This document shows positions 9,005-17,757 of a stretch of 51,397 bases of DNA, one piece after another. The first letter of the stretch is position 1. The number at the start of each line of letters is the position of its first letter. The notes beneath the pieces are model-generated. The model searched no databases and was not told the origin of the DNA. It saw only the letters and a program-made list of their open reading frames with translations. The stretch spans positions 1 through 51,397 of the forward strand of contig JADLFU010000145.1 in NCBI GenBank assembly GCA_020849655.1. Reading direction: 5' to 3'. Origin of the DNA: Polyangiaceae bacterium. Its GTDB lineage: Bacteria > Myxococcota_A > Polyangia > Polyangiales > Polyangiaceae. The position numbers and the translations under genes were made by a program.

Positions 9005-10288
9005 TCAGCGCTGCGGCGCCGGCAGCGTGAGGGAGAGCCCCACCGTCACCGCGAGCACCCCAGAGAACAGCGCCAGCATCGTCGTGGTCAGCCCTGCGCT
9101 CACGCACGCCGAGGCGACGACGACGCCGATGATCCCGCCGAGGTAGCGGGCCGCGGAGACGACGCCCGCCGCGCGACCGCCGCGCGCCGCGTCGACCGCC
9201 GAGAGCGACACCGCCTGCGCGCCCGGCGAGGTCACGCCGAGCCCGAGCGCGACGAGGCACGCCGGCCCGAGCGCCGGCGCGTCGAGCGGCGTCACGATGA
9301 GGGCCGCCATCCCGAGCGCGGACAGCGACGCGCCGAGCGTCATCGAGCCGCGGGCGCCGAGCCGCCGCGAGAGCGCGCCGACCGCCAGCGAGCCCGCGAC
9401 CATGCCCCCCGTCATCAGCAGCATCATCCGCCCGACCACGCGCGGCGGCGTGTCGCTCGGGACCATCAGCGGCAGCACCGTGAGCAGCCCGTACATCGCG
9501 AGGTTCTGCAGGGCGATGACCAGCGACGACGAGCGGAAGGCCGGGATGCCGAGCAGCCGCACGTCGACCGCGGGCGCCGGCGCGCGCAGCTCCCACGCGG
9601 TGAAGGCCGCGAACGCGACGACCCCGAGCCCGAGCCACCCGGCCGGCGCGCGGGAAGAGCGCGCGGCGACGAGCGGGACCGTGGCCATCGCGAAGAGCAG
9701 CGCGCCCGGGACGTCGAAGGACACCTCGTCGCGAGGCGCCTCACGGGGCGAGACGAACACGCTCAGCGCGAGCGCGAGGAGGACGACGGGGACGTTGACC
9801 CAGAAGACCGACTGCCAGCCGAACCGCTGCACGAGCTCGCCGCCGAGCAGCGGCCCTATCGCCGCCGACACCCCCATCAGCGCGGAGAAGGCGCCGAGAA
9901 ACCGCGGGCGGTCGGCGGGCGCGACCTCGGCGCGCACCGTCGCGAGCGCGGCCGGGACGACCATCGACGCGCCCGCCGCCATCGCGACGCGCGCGACGCC
10001 CACCGCGACGATCGTGTGCAGCACGGCCCCGAGGACGGCCGCGGCGGCGAAGGCGACGAGCCCGAGGCGCTGGACCGTGCGGTGCCCGATCGCGTCGCCG
10101 AGCCGCCCTGCGGGCGCGGAGAACACGACGCTCGCGACGAGGTACGACGCCACCGCGACGACGGTCACGAGCTCGATCGGGCGCCCGAGGCCGCGCGCCA
10201 TCGGCGGCACGGCGACCGCGATCATGGTGGAGTTCAACGGCGCGAGGCCGACCGACAGGCCCCAGGAGGCGATCGCGAGCTTTCTCAC
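9005..10288 (-). CDS. MFS drug/proton antiporter-like transporter
   Basis: A 427-residue inner-membrane protein with about 12 to 14 hydrophobic segments. It shows MFS motif A after the second segment (GRLGDAIGHRTVQR), the antiporter motif C (GVSAAIGPLLGG) and the following FGWQSVFWVNVP signature typical of DHA exporters. It starts at a GTG whose GTGA overlaps the stop of the ATP-grasp gene, so it belongs to the same operon as the two phosphotransferase subunits. That linkage suggests export of the compound, or product, handled by the enzyme. The substrate cannot be read from the sequence. It is convergent with the small lipoprotein gene, 15 bases away. Confidence 0.9.
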   Translation of the reverse strand: MRKLAIASWGLSVGLAPLNSTMIAVAVPPMARGLGRPIELVTVVAVASYLVASVVFSAPAGRLGDAIGHRTVQRLGLVAFAAAAVLGAVLHTIVAVGVARVAMAAGASMVVPAALATVRAEVAPADRPRFLGAFSALMGVSAAIGPLLGGELVQRFGWQSVFWVNVPVVLLALALSVFVSPREAPRDEVSFDVPGALLFAMATVPLVAARSSRAPAGWLGLGVVAFAAFTAWELRAPAPAVDVRLLGIPAFRSSSLVIALQNLAMYGLLTVLPLMVPSDTPPRVVGRMMLLMTGGMVAGSLAVGALSRRLGARGSMTLGASLSALGMAALIVTPLDAPALGPACLVALGLGVTSPGAQAVSLSAVDAARGGRAAGVVSAARYLGGIIGVVVASACVSAGLTTTMLALFSGVLAVTVGLSLTLPAPQR

Positions 10289-11073
10289 CGGGTGATGGCG
10301 CGCGCCTGTAGCACCGAGAGCGCGCCGCCGCGCCACGCGAGCTCGAGATCGACCGGGCCGCCGACGAGCGCCTCCGCCGCGGGCACGACGCGCGCGACCT
10401 CGAGCAGGGCGGCGTCCCCGAGCGTGCGCGCGCCGCGCCGGGCCGCGTCGACCTCGCGCTCCACGAGCGCCGCGCCGTCGCGGACGATCTCGAGATCCTT
10501 GTCGCCGAGGGAGACCGAGCGCGGCGCGCCCGCGCGCGACAGGAGGAAGCGATCGGGGTTCACGAGCCCCTGCACGAGCGCCTCGCCGAGCCCCCACGTC
10601 GCCTCGACGACGAGGTGATCCTCGCGCGTGACGGGATCGCGCGAGAAGACGATCGCGGAGATCTCCGCGTCGACGAGCCGCTGCACGACGACGGCCATCC
10701 GCGGCGGATCGGTGAGGCCGAGCTTCGCGCGGTACGCGAGCGCCGCCTTCGTGTGGGCCGACGCGAGCACCCGGCGCACCGCCTCGCGGACGGCGTCCGG
10801 TGTCGCGCACCCGAGCACGGTCGCGTGCAGCCCGGCGAAGCTCGCGGCGGCGCCGTCCTCGCCGATGGCCGACGAGCGCACCGCGACCACCCCGAGCTGC
10901 GCGAGCGCGCGGATCTCTCCGTCGTCGAGGCCGCGCGTGGCGACGGCCGCGGCGTCCTCCGGCGACAGGGCGACGCCGCTCGGCACCGGCAGCCCCGCGC
11001 GGAGCGCGAGCGCGAGGCCGCGCGCCTTGCCGCCGTAGCGCGCGCCGTCGGCCGCGTCGGCGAGCGGGATCAT
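10285..11073 (-). CDS. Stand-alone ATP-grasp (PEP synthase/PPDK N-terminal) subunit
   Basis: A 262-residue nucleotide-binding domain like the N-terminus of PEP synthase, pyruvate phosphate dikinase and rifampicin phosphotransferase. All hallmark blocks are present in order: GGKARGLALALRAGLPVPSG near the N-terminus, VAVRSSAIGEDGAAASFAG, ISAIVFSRDPVTR, VEATWGLGEALVQGLVNPD and DLELAWRGGALSVLQARAIT at the C-terminus. It is somewhat shorter than the usual 300 or so residues, and no His or PEP-binding domain follows. The missing swivelling-His domain is encoded by the upstream gene, whose stop overlaps this ATG (ATGA). The two gene products probably act as one enzyme. Confidence 0.85.
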   Translation of the reverse strand: MIPLADAADGARYGGKARGLALALRAGLPVPSGVALSPEDAAAVATRGLDDGEIRALAQLGVVAVRSSAIGEDGAAASFAGLHATVLGCATPDAVREAVRRVLASAHTKAALAYRAKLGLTDPPRMAVVVQRLVDAEISAIVFSRDPVTREDHLVVEATWGLGEALVQGLVNPDRFLLSRAGAPRSVSLGDKDLEIVRDGAALVEREVDAARRGARTLGDAALLEVARVVPAAEALVGGPVDLELAWRGGALSVLQARAITR

Positions 11074-12770
11074 CCGAGGAGCGTGACCTCGCCCGTGTCG
11101 CCGTCGACGCGCACCCGCTGCCCGTCCCTGATCTTCGCCGTCGCGCGGATCGTGCCGACGACGCCGGGGATCCCGTACTCGCGCGCGACGATCGCCGCGT
11201 GGCAGAGCTGGCCTCCGCGGTCGGTCACGATGGCGCCCAGCAGCGGGAGCACGACGTTGAAGTACGGCGCCGTCGCGCGCGTGACCAGCACGTCCCCCTG
11301 CGCGATGCGGCCGAACTCCTCCTCGCGGTCCACCAGCCGCGCGGTGCCCTCGTAGACGCCGGGGCTCACCGCGAGGCCCTTGATGGCCTCGGCGCCAGCG
11401 GGCGCGGGCTCCTGGAAGATGCCCGTCATCACCGCCTCGACGGCCCGCCCCGCGCGCCGCCCGCGCTCCGGGAGCCAGTCGACCGGCGGCGGCGCGCCCG
11501 GCTCACCGCCGAGGAACTTCGGCACGTCGGCGTCCGAGACGCTCTTCGTCGTGCGCCACGCGCGGCGGGCCTCGAGCTCCGCCCGCTCTGCCTCGCTCAC
11601 GCGTCCTGCCGTCACGAAGCGGTCGAGCTCCTCGGGCGTCGCGTCCAGCAGGAGCGCCGCGTCCCGGAGCTGGCCGTCGGCGGCGAGCCGACGCCCCGCC
11701 TCGAGCACCGCGCGGCGGGTGATCCCGATCGCCCAGCCCTCGGAGTGATGACCCCGCTCGTCGCGCAGGCGCGCGATGTGCCGCGCCTCCGCCAGGAGCT
11801 CATCGAACCGCGCGCGGTGCTCCACGGGGACTCGCTCGCGCAGGCTCGAGATCGCCCGCGCGCCGTCGGTGTCACCTCTCGAGCCCGCGCCGCGGGTCGC
11901 CGCCCGGACCGCGCCGAGCAGCGTGTCGGGCAGCTCGCCGGCGCTCGGGGCGCACACGTCGTACCCGACCGCGCGGTGGCGCACGACGTCGAGGTACGCG
12001 CGGGCCGCCGAGCCCACGTCGCCGCCCGCGTCGCACAGCCGCGCGAGCGTGTCGGCCGCGGGCCCGTCGCCGTCGAGGGTCGCCTGCGCGGCAGGATCGC
12101 GCGCGACAGCCTCCGCCAGCGCCTGGAGCTCGGCGCGCGCCGCCCCCAGCGAGATGGCGGAGGCGCCGCGCACGGCGGCCAGGATCTCGCCCGTCGGGCG
12201 CCCCGTCCACGCGCCGACCTGCGCCAGAAAGTCACCGATGGGGAGGGTGCAGGTGATCGTGAAGCGGTGGTGCTGCCGGACCATCGCGGCGTTGTTCGCC
12301 ACGCACTCGGCGAGGTGGGCCGCGAGCTCGCGCGCGTCGAGCTTCTCGACCGACAGCGCCTGCATCTGCCGGTGCCTCGCGTCGGCCGCCGGCTTCACGC
12401 GCGCGTCCCACTCGTTCAAGTCCTCGCGCCACAGCTTGCGCTCGAACGCGTCGTGCGACGCCGTCACGCGCGCGCGGAGCTTCGGGACCGCGCGCGTCAG
12501 CAGCCAGAACACGGCGCGCGGAGGCGGGCCCTTCGCGCCGGGCGGCGCGCCGAACGGCACGGCCTGCATGTACGCAAAATCGTTCACGTACGCGGGCTGC
12601 AGGTGAGACAGCATCACCCCGAACCTCGCCGTGCTCTCGGCGAACCCCGCGGCGAAGCCCGCGAGCGTCGCGTGCTGGACGAGCCTCGACGCCGGGCGCG
12701 GGAAGTGTGCGGTCTCGAGCTCCCAGGTGCCCGGTCCGGGCGCAGCGAAAGACTTGGTGGTGGTCGGCAT
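11070..12770 (-). CDS. PEP-utilising enzyme subunit: substrate-like domain plus phosphohistidine swivel domain
   Basis: A 566-residue cytoplasmic protein. The C-terminal 90 or so residues form the PEP-utiliser mobile domain with the phosphate-carrying His524 in GGQLCHAAIVAREYGIPGVV, then DGQRVRVDGDTGEV. Residues 1 to about 460 are helical and resemble the substrate-binding part of rifampicin phosphotransferase-like enzymes (blocks such as HLQPAYVNDFAYMQ and LWREDLNEWDARVKP). It lacks an ATP-grasp domain, which the next gene supplies. The Cys before the catalytic His, where Ser or Thr is usual, is odd. A purine-rich GAGGGG stands a few bases before the ATG. The natural substrate is unknown. 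Confidence 0.8.
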   Translation of the reverse strand: MPTTTKSFAAPGPGTWELETAHFPRPASRLVQHATLAGFAAGFAESTARFGVMLSHLQPAYVNDFAYMQAVPFGAPPGAKGPPPRAVFWLLTRAVPKLRARVTASHDAFERKLWREDLNEWDARVKPAADARHRQMQALSVEKLDARELAAHLAECVANNAAMVRQHHRFTITCTLPIGDFLAQVGAWTGRPTGEILAAVRGASAISLGAARAELQALAEAVARDPAAQATLDGDGPAADTLARLCDAGGDVGSAARAYLDVVRHRAVGYDVCAPSAGELPDTLLGAVRAATRGAGSRGDTDGARAISSLRERVPVEHRARFDELLAEARHIARLRDERGHHSEGWAIGITRRAVLEAGRRLAADGQLRDAALLLDATPEELDRFVTAGRVSEAERAELEARRAWRTTKSVSDADVPKFLGGEPGAPPPVDWLPERGRRAGRAVEAVMTGIFQEPAPAGAEAIKGLAVSPGVYEGTARLVDREEEFGRIAQGDVLVTRATAPYFNVVLPLLGAIVTDRGGQLCHAAIVAREYGIPGVVGTIRATAKIRDGQRVRVDGDTGEVTLLG

Positions 12771-12836
12771 GTCCCCTCGGGTACGTACGATCCGCCCCGG
12801 AGGGTCCGCCGGTCCAGCGGAAAGTGATCCGCGTCA

Positions 12837-12858
12837 CCCCGGCGCCCGCGCGCCGGGG
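12837..12858 (-). terminator. Hairpin downstream of the acyl-CoA dehydrogenase gene
   Basis: CCCCGGCGC (12837-12845) and GCGCCGGGG (12850-12858) form a perfect 9-bp stem with a CCGC loop, beginning 10 bases after the stop of the minus-strand gene. There is no T-tract. It separates the uracil/acyl-CoA cluster from the phosphotransferase operon. Confidence 0.55.
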
Positions 12859-12867
12859 AGGCTCGGC

Positions 12868-14586
12868 TCAGATGAGGTCGAACGGGTAGCCGCCGTCGCC
12901 GTAGACGCGCGCCGCTATCGCCTTGCGCAGCTCGTCGTCGTTGCGGTCGAAGGCTCGCAGGTTGGCCTTCATGCGCGCGCCGGCGGACGACGCGAACATC
13001 GTCGTGAGATCGATCTCGCGGCGCGCGCCCTCCTCGCCCCGCTGCTCGATCGCGCGCGTCGTGCGGGAGATGCACGCGGCGAGGCAGAACAGATCGATCG
13101 CGATCTCGGCGACCCGGCGCTGCGTGTACTGCATCTCGGCGATGTCCTTGCCGTGCTTGCGGAGCACCTTGTCGACGGCCTTCACCAGCTCGACCACGTA
13201 CTCCTCGAACAGCACCGCCTCGCGCGAGAGCAGCGGGTGCGCCCGCGTGAGCCGCTCGCGCCCGAGGGCCGTGCGCGCCTTGCGCACCGCGAACTCACTC
13301 AACAATCCAAACCCCTTGATCGGCTCGCGCATCGCCCGCACGACCTCCGCGAGCTCCTTGCCGGGGCCCGCCATCCCCGAGAGCGCGATGAAGCAGCGCA
13401 GGATCTCGTTCGTGCCCTCGAAGATGAGGTTGATGCGCGCGTCGCGCAGCAGCCGCTCGTAGGGGTACTCCTTCATGTAGCCGATGCCGGCGGCGATCTG
13501 CAGCGCGTCGTTGACGACCCGCCACAGCGTCTCGCTGCCCACGATCTTGCAGATGGCGCTCTCGAGCGAGTAGTCGAGCCGCCCGGTGTCGACGAGGCCC
13601 GCCGTCAGGTACGCCGCGCTCTCGAGCGCCCACGTCTGGCAGGTCATCTCGGCGATCTTGTCCTTGATGAGCCCGAACTCGCCGATCGACCGCCCGAACG
13701 CCTTGCGCTCCATCACGCGCGCCGTGGCCATCGAGATCAGGCGCTTGCACGCGCCGACGCTGCCGGTCGCGAGCGAGAGCCGGCCGGTGTTCAGCACCTC
13801 CATCGCGACGCGGAACCCTCGCCCCGGCTCGCCGAGCACGCCCTCGACCGGCACGCGGACGTCGTCGAAATACACCGAGGTCGTCGACGATCCCCGGATC
13901 CCGAGCTTGTGCTCGCCGGGGCCGGAGGTGACGCCGGGGCCGCGCTCGACGAGCAGCGCGGTCAGCCTCGGCTTGTGCCCCTCCTCGGGGCGGCTCGTCC
14001 GCGCGAACACGGTGAACACGTCGGCGAAGCCGCCGTTCGTGATCCAGATCTTCGAGCCGTTGAGCACGTAGTGGCGGCCGTCGGGCGACAGCTCCGCGCG
14101 CGTCTGGATGGCCGCCGCGTCGGAGCCCGCGGACGGCTCGGTCAGCGCGAACGCGGCGACGCGCTCGCCCGTCGCGAGGCGCGGCAGCCAGCGCGCCTTC
14201 TGCTCCTCGGTGCCAAACAGCAGGATGGCGCGCAGGCCGATGCTCTGGTGGCCTCCGAGCGTCACCGCGAGCGAGGCGTCGTGGCGCGACACCTCCTCCA
14301 TCACCCGCGCGTACGCCATCGTCGAGAGGCCGAGCCCGCCGTGGGCCTGCGGCGTCACCATGCCGAACAGCCCGAGCTCCTTCAGGCCGTCGAGCACCTC
14401 GGCCGGGATCTCGTGCGCGTCGTCGATGGCGGCGCTGTCGACCGACGCCTCGCAGAACCGCCTCACCGAGTCCACCATGAGGCGCACCTCGTCGCGCTCG
14501 GCCTCGCCGGGCGCGGGGTACGGGAAGATCAGCTCCTCGGCGACGACGCCGTGGAACAGCGCCTTCATGAAGGACTCTTCGTTCAT
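12868..14586 (-). CDS. Acyl-CoA dehydrogenase (VLCAD/ACAD9-like)
   Basis: A FAD-dependent enzyme that introduces the alpha-beta double bond into acyl-CoA. The 572 residues hold the N-terminal helical domain, the FAD/substrate middle domain (AFALTEPSAGSDAAAIQT, KIWITNGG) and the C-terminal helical domain with RKAFGRSIGEFGLIKDKIAEM and the catalytic-Glu loop NLIFEGTNEILR. An extra C-terminal region of about 150 residues (from about 420) matches the longer VLCAD/ACAD9 architecture. It starts 7 bases after the upp stop on the same strand, so it probably shares the uracil-catabolism transcript. Its actual acyl substrate is not readable. Confidence 0.92.
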   Translation of the reverse strand: MNEESFMKALFHGVVAEELIFPYPAPGEAERDEVRLMVDSVRRFCEASVDSAAIDDAHEIPAEVLDGLKELGLFGMVTPQAHGGLGLSTMAYARVMEEVSRHDASLAVTLGGHQSIGLRAILLFGTEEQKARWLPRLATGERVAAFALTEPSAGSDAAAIQTRAELSPDGRHYVLNGSKIWITNGGFADVFTVFARTSRPEEGHKPRLTALLVERGPGVTSGPGEHKLGIRGSSTTSVYFDDVRVPVEGVLGEPGRGFRVAMEVLNTGRLSLATGSVGACKRLISMATARVMERKAFGRSIGEFGLIKDKIAEMTCQTWALESAAYLTAGLVDTGRLDYSLESAICKIVGSETLWRVVNDALQIAAGIGYMKEYPYERLLRDARINLIFEGTNEILRCFIALSGMAGPGKELAEVVRAMREPIKGFGLLSEFAVRKARTALGRERLTRAHPLLSREAVLFEEYVVELVKAVDKVLRKHGKDIAEMQYTQRRVAEIAIDLFCLAACISRTTRAIEQRGEEGARREIDLTTMFASSAGARMKANLRAFDRNDDELRKAIAARVYGDGGYPFDLI

Positions 14587-14593
14587 CAGCCGC

Positions 14594-15232
14594 TCACTTG
14601 GTGCCGAACAGCCGGTCGCCCGCGTCGCCGATGCCGGGGAGGATGTAGCCGTGATCGTTGAGGCCGTCGTCGACGCTCGCGGTGTAGATGGGCACGTCGG
14701 GGTGGTGCTCGGTGAAGTTCTTGATGCCCTCGGGGCACGCGAGCAGGCACACGAACTTCAGCGAGCCGGGCTTCGACCGCTTGATGCGCGCGACCGCCGC
14801 GATGGCGCTGTTGCCCGTCGCGAGCATCGGGTCGCACACGATGACCTCGCGGTCGGCGAGGCGCTGCGGCACCTTGTAGTAGTACTCGACCGCCATCAGC
14901 GTCTTCGGATCGCGGTACAGGCCCACGTGGCCGACGCGCGCCGACGGGATGAGCTCGAGCATCCCGTCGAGGATGCCGAGGCCGGCGCGGAGGATCGCGA
15001 CGAGCACGACCTTCTTGCCCTCGAGCATCGGCTTGTTCGTCACGGCGAGCGGCGTCTGCACCTCGACGTCGGAGAGCTTCATGTCGCGCGTCGCCTCGTA
15101 GGCGAGCAGCATCGAGATCTCCTTCAGCAGCAGGCGAAAGCTCGCGGTCGACGTCGTCGACTTTCGCATCAGCGTCAGCTTGTGTTGCACGAGCGGGTGG
15201 TCGACGACGTGGACGTTGGCGGGGAGGGTCAT
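14594..15232 (-). CDS. upp: Uracil phosphoribosyltransferase
   Basis: Converts uracil and PRPP to UMP. The 212-residue protein has the UPRT hallmarks: [19 protein letters not shown], the PRPP loop [15 protein letters not shown] and the C-terminal uracil-binding block [17 protein letters not shown]. In most bacteria this is a salvage enzyme. Here it lies 43 bases downstream of urc4 and urc1, where it is expected to supply the UMP that the URC pathway degrades (the counterpart of yeast URC6). Confidence 0.96.
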
Positions 15233-15275
15233 CAGGGTCTCTCGGGTGTCGTGGGAGGGTGGGACGCGACGCGCG

Positions 15276-16503
15276 TCAGAACACTGTGCCGTCGCTGACG
15301 ATGGAGATGGGAGGCGCGCCGTCAGAGCGGCGCTCCCGGGCGAGGAGGCGGCCCGTCGCCCACGTGCCGCCCTCGAGGACGCTGGCGAGCGGCAGATCGG
15401 TCGGCGACCTGTCGAGCGCGGCGCAGACCAGCGGATGCAAGTCATCGAGCAGCGACAGCGTGCACGCGCGCCACTCGACGACCAGCGGCGACCCCGGCAG
15501 GTGGGCCTCGCGGTAGAGCGACGGATCGCGCAGGGACAGCGCGCCGCCGTCGACGAACAGCCCGCCGTTGCGGTACTCGGGCAGGCCCGTGAGCGCGGCG
15601 CCACCCGTCACGCACAGACCGCCCTCCTCGAGCGGCTCGAACAGCGAGTACGCGAGCCACTGGCTGAGCTTGTGAAAGGGCACCAGCGAACCGGGCAGCG
15701 CCGGGTGCTCCCACACGTCGCCGAGGCTCACGCCGTCGAGGCGCAGGCGCCCCGGCCATATCTCCGCGAGCCCGCACAGGAGCGAGGACAGCAACAGCTG
15801 CGCGTCGACCTCGCCCGTCGACGAGGGCGCCGTGTCGAAGAGCCCGCCCGGGCGTCCGCTCGCGCCGAACACCGTCGTCTCGGCGGCCAGCGCGGCGCCG
15901 AGGCTCGCGAGCAGGGCGGCGCGCCCGTCGAGGCCGTCCATGGGGTTGGAGTCGTCGACCTGCAGCCCGCGCGCGACGTCGGCGACACGGAGGCGCGCGA
16001 GCCGCGCGGCGTCGACCCGCAGCGGATCGCCTGGGTCGTCGGAGAAGAGCCCCGCCTCGAACATGCGCAGGCTCGCGACGGCGAGGCCCTCGCTGCGGCC
16101 CGCGGAGGCGCCCGTCGAGGCGTCGCCGTACCGCCACACCGCGCCCGCGCCGGCGTCGAGCAGCACGCTCACCATGACGAGATCGATCATCGCGCGCGCG
16201 CGCTCCGCGGGGGCCCGCCCGACGAGGCGCGCGCGCAGCCCCGCGAGGCGCGGCGCGCCGCCGACGTCGAAGTGGCGGTAGCGACCGTGCACCGGCACGA
16301 GGAGGCTCGGGTACGCGGCGCGCGTGACCTCGGCGACCCTCGCCGCGATCTCGGGCAGGCGCGCCCGGTCGACGCTGAACCAGTCGCTCTCTCCGCGCTC
16401 GGCGCGATCGAGGAGCGCGCGGCTCTCTCGGCGGATGGTGTCGGTCGAGAACAGCCGCGCGAGCTCGGGCGAGAGGCGGCGCGGATCGAGCGGGGCGCGC
16501 GCC

Positions 16504-16511
<8 letters not shown>
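15276..16511 (-). CDS. urc4: URC4-type DUF1688 protein of uracil catabolism
   Basis: A 411-residue protein matching the DUF1688 family, whose fungal member URC4/URG3 is required for growth on uracil as nitrogen source. Typical blocks are [19 protein letters not shown] (about 67-85), [33 protein letters not shown] and [17 protein letters not shown]. The biochemical step is not firmly settled; genetics place it after UMP formation, on the way to ribosylurea and urea. Its start overlaps the end of urc1 by eight bases. This neighbourhood (urc1-urc4-upp) is the main support for the call. Confidence 0.88.

Positions 16512-17757
<1,246 letters not shown>

Follow-up and report, generated by a model that had tools for sequence, protein, structure and literature searches.

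Three adjacent genes in a contig of a Polyangiaceae bacterium (GenBank assembly GCA_020849655.1, contig JADLFU010000145.1; we refer to the whole stretch of 51,397 nucleotides analysed as the window) probably encode a two-component small-molecule dikinase of the rifampin phosphotransferase (RPH) superfamily together with its dedicated exporter, likely as a self-contained detoxification system; we put the probability of this reading at roughly 0.6. The operon lies on the minus strand, runs from position 12770 to position 9005 and contains three open reading frames: gene 1 (11070–12770, 566 amino acids), the substrate-binding and swivel subunit of the dikinase; gene 2 (10285–11073, 262 amino acids), an ATP-grasp subunit with a shortened N-lobe; and gene 3 (9005–10288, 427 amino acids, GTG start), a major facilitator superfamily (MFS) transporter of DHA2 (EmrB/QacA)-like type. 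As an initial annotation of the sequence had stated, the genes overlap by four bases at both joints, ATGA at 11070–11073 and GTGA at 10285–10288. Pfam likewise bore out the domain content given there, i.e. the swivel domain in gene 1 (PEP-utilizers PF00391 alone, residues 490–560, E = 4.9e-21), ATP-grasp alone in gene 2 (PPDK_N PF01326 alone, E = 8.3e-50) and an MFS domain in gene 3 (MFS_1 PF07690, E = 7.3e-47). Computation established what the subunits are and how they fold, and that both their catalytic residues and their association with the pump are conserved.

The kinase subunits and their known relatives

Sequence searches against solved structures recognized only the last 110 residues of gene 1. 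We built an AlphaFold2 model of its product from nine orthologues (mean predicted local distance difference test score 88.9), and the top six Foldseek matches of this model were all RPH. Residues 1–566 of the model aligned with residues 311–867 of RPH-Lm (5FBU) over 471 residues (VIA-align; Z = 23.1, 4.3 Å, 20% identity), and RPH rather than another enzyme was matched by the N-terminal region, consistent with the relationship proposed in the initial annotation. The swivel domain itself (residues ∼457–566, positions 11073–11402) also aligned with pyruvate phosphate dikinase (PPDK), enzyme I and pyruvate kinase. Because the model aligns end to end with RPH-Lm 311–867, the helical part of gene 1 is, according to the predicted structure, an RPH-type substrate domain in the order found in RPH. 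The permutation claimed initially therefore does not apply here: gene 1 keeps the substrate domain ahead of the catalytic His, the chain is split into two genes, and only the gene order departs from the domain order of RPH.

A true permutation was found only in three Myxococcota (L077:5894–8458, L078:5152–7773 and L146:5986–8610; L numbers denote our loci), where a single protein carries the substrate domain, the swivel and then the ATP-grasp domain. In the model of the L146 protein, the C-terminal domain superimposed on RPH 1–315 (Z = 31), and RPH 314–848 was matched by the N-terminal part (Z ∼16); the ATP-grasp and helical domains were predicted with confidence and the swivel was poorly placed (AlphaFold2, predicted TM score 0.56). 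Since gene 2 immediately follows gene 1 at nearly all split loci and these three Myxococcota fuse the two, we regard the two genes as encoding one enzyme.

The residues expected of such an enzyme are conserved. His524 (positions 11199–11201, motif TDRGGQLCH), named as the catalytic His in the initial annotation, has an equivalent in all 76 split relatives that we aligned as well as in the PpsA, HpeH-like, CreH-like and RPH references, in keeping with a catalytic-type His. The preceding Cys, which had been considered unusual, is not: it occurs in 15 of the 76 relatives (Ser in 60), and Cys precedes the catalytic His in HpeH and in phosphoenolpyruvate (PEP) synthases, whose published motif reads GGxT[S/C]HAAI (PMC12167813). 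Further upstream, residues 336–339 form the motif R-D-E-R in gene 1 and R-[DE]-x-R in 76/76 split relatives, with Arg at position 336 in every one and Asp at position 337 in all but one (75/76). We propose Arg336-Asp337 (positions 11760–11765) as the equivalent of RPH Arg666-Glu667, which are essential for the second phosphotransfer step; the RPH mutants R666A and E667A no longer inactivate rifampin (PMC4844700). In the alignment the counterpart of Arg666 is clear and the acidic residue of RPH is one column off; an equivalent of RPH Lys670, sought in the same way in the gene 1 family, was not found.

For gene 2, the top match in the PDB was 9goj (E = 3e-33), the HpeI protein of Rhodococcus rhodochrous GD02. 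K16, R66, T85, E244, Q256 and R258 of gene 2 are conserved family positions. The Lys-Arg spacing is 50 residues in gene 2 and mostly 51–55 across its family, compared with 94–98 in RPH, PpsB, HpeI-like and CreI-like proteins, and gene 2 is smaller than these known relatives because ∼42 residues of the N-lobe are missing.

Division of such a kinase between two genes, which had been taken for a novelty, is known from PpsAB of Thauera and Azoarcus, CreHI of Corynebacterium and HpeHI of Rhodococcus; these two-component dikinases need both parts, and their swivel His first receives a pyrophosphoryl group, of which it hands on the β-phosphate (PMC12167813, PMC6114531). Like them, the operon separates a substrate-plus-swivel subunit from an ATP-grasp subunit, carries the TxxGGxxxH motif and has a large subunit of RPH-like fold; the published superposition of HpeH on RPH (3.6 Å, 20% over 473 residues; PMC12167813) is almost that obtained here for gene 1. 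The Azoarcus KH32C plasmid, with the order ppsA-ppsB-CBS-ppc, also has the large subunit gene first. In architecture and fold, gene 1 and gene 2 thus correspond to a two-component small-molecule dikinase in the broad sense (PMC12167813), as judged from alignments and the model, and phosphorylation activity is predicted.

The pair nevertheless differs from the characterized enzymes in several ways. PpsA, HpeH-like and CreH-like proteins share 43–46% identity with one another but only 22–25% with gene 1, and they form a separate clade of 100% support in our tree, where the gene 1 family groups with fused RPH-like proteins (the branches are long and the exact joining point is unsure). They have Val-Glu at the positions of residues 336–337, within a V-E-[ND]-H motif, in place of R-D-E-R; their ATP-grasp subunit is 354–380 amino acids long with a Lys-Arg spacing of 96–98, compared with 262 and 50 in gene 2; and their loci are catabolic clusters without an MFS gene of the gene 3 type. 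By sequence comparison, gene 1 and gene 2 fall outside the PpsA/CreH/HpeH phenolic subfamily and constitute a distinct subfamily of a known enzyme kind, of which the RDxR motif and the ATP-grasp lobe shortened by ∼42 residues are the signature.

RPH itself (5FBT, 5FBU, 5HV1) has the same three domains but in a single chain that begins with ATP-grasp. Gene 1 is 27% identical to the substrate-swivel part of an annotated Streptomyces RPH, confirmed RPHs share > 42% identity with RPH-Lm (PMC4844700), and the RPH model NF041857 scored 95.9 bits against a cutoff of 999. With identity and model score far too low, and two genes instead of one, RPH proper was ruled out. PEP synthase and PPDK have the ATP-grasp and swivel domains in common with the pair; however, their swivel lies mid-chain, while that of gene 1 is at the end, and Pfam found no pyruvate/PEP-binding C-terminal barrel in either gene 1 or gene 2. 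A complete fused enzyme, the presence of which elsewhere in the genome the initial annotation had treated as a challenge to its proposal, does exist (G000:C26, locus L170). This RPH-like protein begins with ATP-grasp and has the swivel near its C-terminus, unlike the layout of PEP synthase; yet its sequence match to gene 1 spans residues 362–562 only, and it is a different paralogue.

Inheritance with one exporter family

A phylum survey of 379 genomes combined with a scan of named genomes yielded ∼98 relatives. Nearly all of the split relatives have gene 2 immediately after gene 1. At 41 loci, which leave 38 tree rows once duplicates are discarded, the pair has a DHA2-like MFS gene as its neighbour; these loci come from Myxococcota, Actinomycetota, Acidobacteriota, Pseudomonadota, Cyanobacteriota (two cyanobacteria) and FCPU426. 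The MFS gene is usually downstream on the same strand, and upstream in L117 and L121. Carriers of the operon include Nocardioides and Geodermatophilus, and orthologues of gene 1 and gene 2 occur in Sorangium cellulosum (L098) and Nocardioides (L089). The clade that contains gene 1 of the window comprises 31 rows (98% support), of which 30 have the MFS gene, and the sole row without it, L066, ends at a contig edge. Mapped onto the tree, the MFS label requires 6 changes, versus 29 with shuffled labels (0/500 shuffles). Distances between gene 1 proteins correlated with those between the MFS proteins at r = 0.89 (0/2000 permutations) and with those between gene 2 proteins at 0.77, values that partly reflect the relatedness of the host genomes. 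In an Immundisolibacteraceae metagenome-assembled genome (MAG; L119:3081–5336), ATP-grasp and MFS are encoded in a single continuous reading frame. The co-conservation of the genes in other genomes anticipated by the initial annotation was therefore observed: in several phyla this kinase family and a single family of exporters are passed on as a set, and the operon has the appearance of a conserved unit for modification and export that has yet to be studied.

Gene 3 shares with DHA2 drug:H+ antiporters of the EmrB/QacA type both the top NCBIfam model, TIGR00711 (efflux_EmrB), and the conserved antiporter-type motif GP..GG (G145, P146, G149), a motif linked to export in MFS transporters. It departs from them in that it scores 122 bits against the curated cutoff of 230, is tied to one kinase family and is fused to ATP-grasp in L119.

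We also inspected the 103 proteins that flank the MFS-type operons. No Pfam family occurred more than three times among them, and carboxylase, P450, phosphatase and dehydrogenase genes did not recur. The same held for biosynthetic neighbours, with SnoaL, methyltransferase and chorismate-binding models matching two proteins each, and a natural-product cluster was rejected as the setting of the operon. A phage defence system was rejected as well, PADLOC giving no match for gene 1, gene 2 or gene 3.

Proposed function and competing explanations

By analogy with the relatives, the gene 2 protein would bind ATP and offer it to the gene 1 swivel, where His524 would attack the β-phosphate, with AMP and Pi leaving. 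The swivel would then turn back towards the helical part of the gene 1 protein, where a hydroxyl group of the small-molecule ligand would accept the phosphate, Arg336-Asp337 positioning the phosphohistidine during this transfer. From the genomic context, we infer that the DHA2-type pump acts on the same compound and either exports the phosphorylated product or holds down the level of the unmodified compound, the kinase trapping what is left. Such a system would most likely serve to detoxify a hydroxylated and perhaps phenolic compound that arises in the cell itself or comes from its surroundings. Stand-alone detoxification or export is favoured over catabolism because no pathway gene recurs nearby. 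The two-subunit phosphotransferase coupled to export that the initial annotation had put forward is backed by the structure match, the conservation of the operon, the tree, the distance correlations and the L119 fusion; the suggested self-protection against a natural product is not, given 103 neighbouring proteins without a recurring biosynthetic or pathway family.

Several points weigh against detoxification by phosphorylation and export. The score below the TIGR00711 cutoff means that the assignment of gene 3 to the DHA2 subfamily, and hence the choice of export over import, is not certain, and transporters can also take up growth substrates. The shortened ATP-grasp lobe could change the reaction. 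The L119 fusion rests on one MAG sequence, many of the loci lie on short MAG contigs whose genes we called ourselves, and a conserved neighbour might be encoded at a distant site in the genome.

The foremost rival explanation is a kinase that works in catabolism or scavenging, as PpsAB, CreHI and HpeHI do, and would trap a phenolic growth substrate brought in by the MFS protein acting as an importer. All three characterized two-component relatives open aromatic catabolism, and the sub-micromolar Michaelis constant of HpeHI is consistent with scavenging (PMC12167813); the split architecture is identical. We consider this explanation rather unlikely, however, in view of the low identity to these enzymes and their separate, fully supported clade, the resemblance of gene 3 to drug antiporters and the flanking proteins, among which no pathway family recurs, unlike at catabolic loci. 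A phosphotransferase for rifamycin or another natural product, serving antibiotic resistance or the self-protection of a producer, would account for rifampin-bound RPH being the nearest solved fold, for the retained RPH-like Arg-acid pair and for a neighbour resembling drug exporters. It is distinctly improbable, though, at an identity to annotated RPH so far below that of confirmed RPHs, and with an operon that occurs in unrelated phyla without a common biosynthetic cluster.

Membrane-bound substrates would suit the fusion of a kinase half to the MFS protein in L119, and an operon that stands alone would fit a lipid or isoprenoid-alcohol kinase whose phosphorylated product the MFS protein flips or exports; yet no lipid gene recurred among the flanking proteins, and the top models for gene 3 were drug antiporters, not lysophospholipid flippases, so we hold such a kinase to be very unlikely. 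The chance that the genes are a broken or fortuitously adjacent remnant of a PEP synthase is negligible. Databases do place both halves under PEP synthase models, but the PEP-binding TIM-barrel domain is absent and the reading frames and catalytic residues are intact across phyla; with the intact operon conserved so widely, a remnant of PEP synthase or PPDK was ruled out.

The favoured reading, a dikinase with a dedicated exporter, has a stronger and more doubtful form, in which the MFS protein is a third subunit that receives the phosphorylated product straight from the two-piece phosphohistidine kinase, the whole being a hitherto undescribed detoxification module that spans phyla. We think this unlikely; if true, the handover from kinase to pump would be an outward system resembling group translocation, the mirror image of the sugar phosphotransferase system. 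Coupling of kinase and pump would provide a new disposal route for hydroxylated compounds, which would matter for silent drug resistance and for the bioprocessing of aromatics. With the subfamily defined, the question of which compounds are the substrates of non-rifampin dikinases becomes amenable to testing. A search of open-access papers, which is weak evidence of absence, returned nothing relevant to this operon or to a dikinase controlled by cyclic nucleotides beyond HpeHI.

Sister clades and surroundings of the locus

In a fully supported sister clade of 17 tree rows, a cyclic-nucleotide-binding domain (PF00027) replaces the MFS protein and is either joined to the ATP-grasp subunit in one protein or encoded immediately after it (L128:7611–8861, L138:8436–8843, L109, L112, L113, L115, L116, L118, L122–L124, L127, L131–L133, L135, L142 and L149). 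Its presence predicts control of a two-component dikinase by cyclic AMP or cyclic GMP. In Variovorax YR216 (L124:9111–10433), the gene behind the dikinase that carries this domain encodes a protein combining ferredoxin, class III cyclase and globin domains, a possible source of the cyclic-nucleotide signal. Another 14 relatives without the MFS gene have a gene for a TetR-like regulator, judged as such by eye from the sequence, in the region (L102–L104, L106, L125, L126, L129, L136, L144, L150–L152, L155 and L156). Two observations concern the catabolic relatives: Rhodococcus plasmids carry a Cre-like cluster, and plasmid pRlBT01c of Rhizobium leguminosarum (L167:4504–11606) carries a cluster resembling Hpe, with a two-component kinase, a biotin carrier, a biotin carboxylase and a haloacid dehalogenase-type (HAD) hydrolase.

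In the window, the gene upstream of gene 1 encodes an acyl-CoA dehydrogenase, from which it is separated by 97 bases. Folding of positions 12771–12870 revealed a GC-rich hairpin in this gap (12837–12858), with a perfect stem of 9 bp, a loop of 4 nt and no T-run, which is a possible unit boundary; because of the gap and this strong hairpin, gene 1 probably opens its own unit. The gene downstream of gene 3 sits on the opposite strand. Further away, at 14594–17757, genes for a uracil phosphoribosyltransferase, a DUF1688 protein and a GTP cyclohydrolase II-like protein are grouped, which we take to resemble a URC-type set for uracil catabolism.

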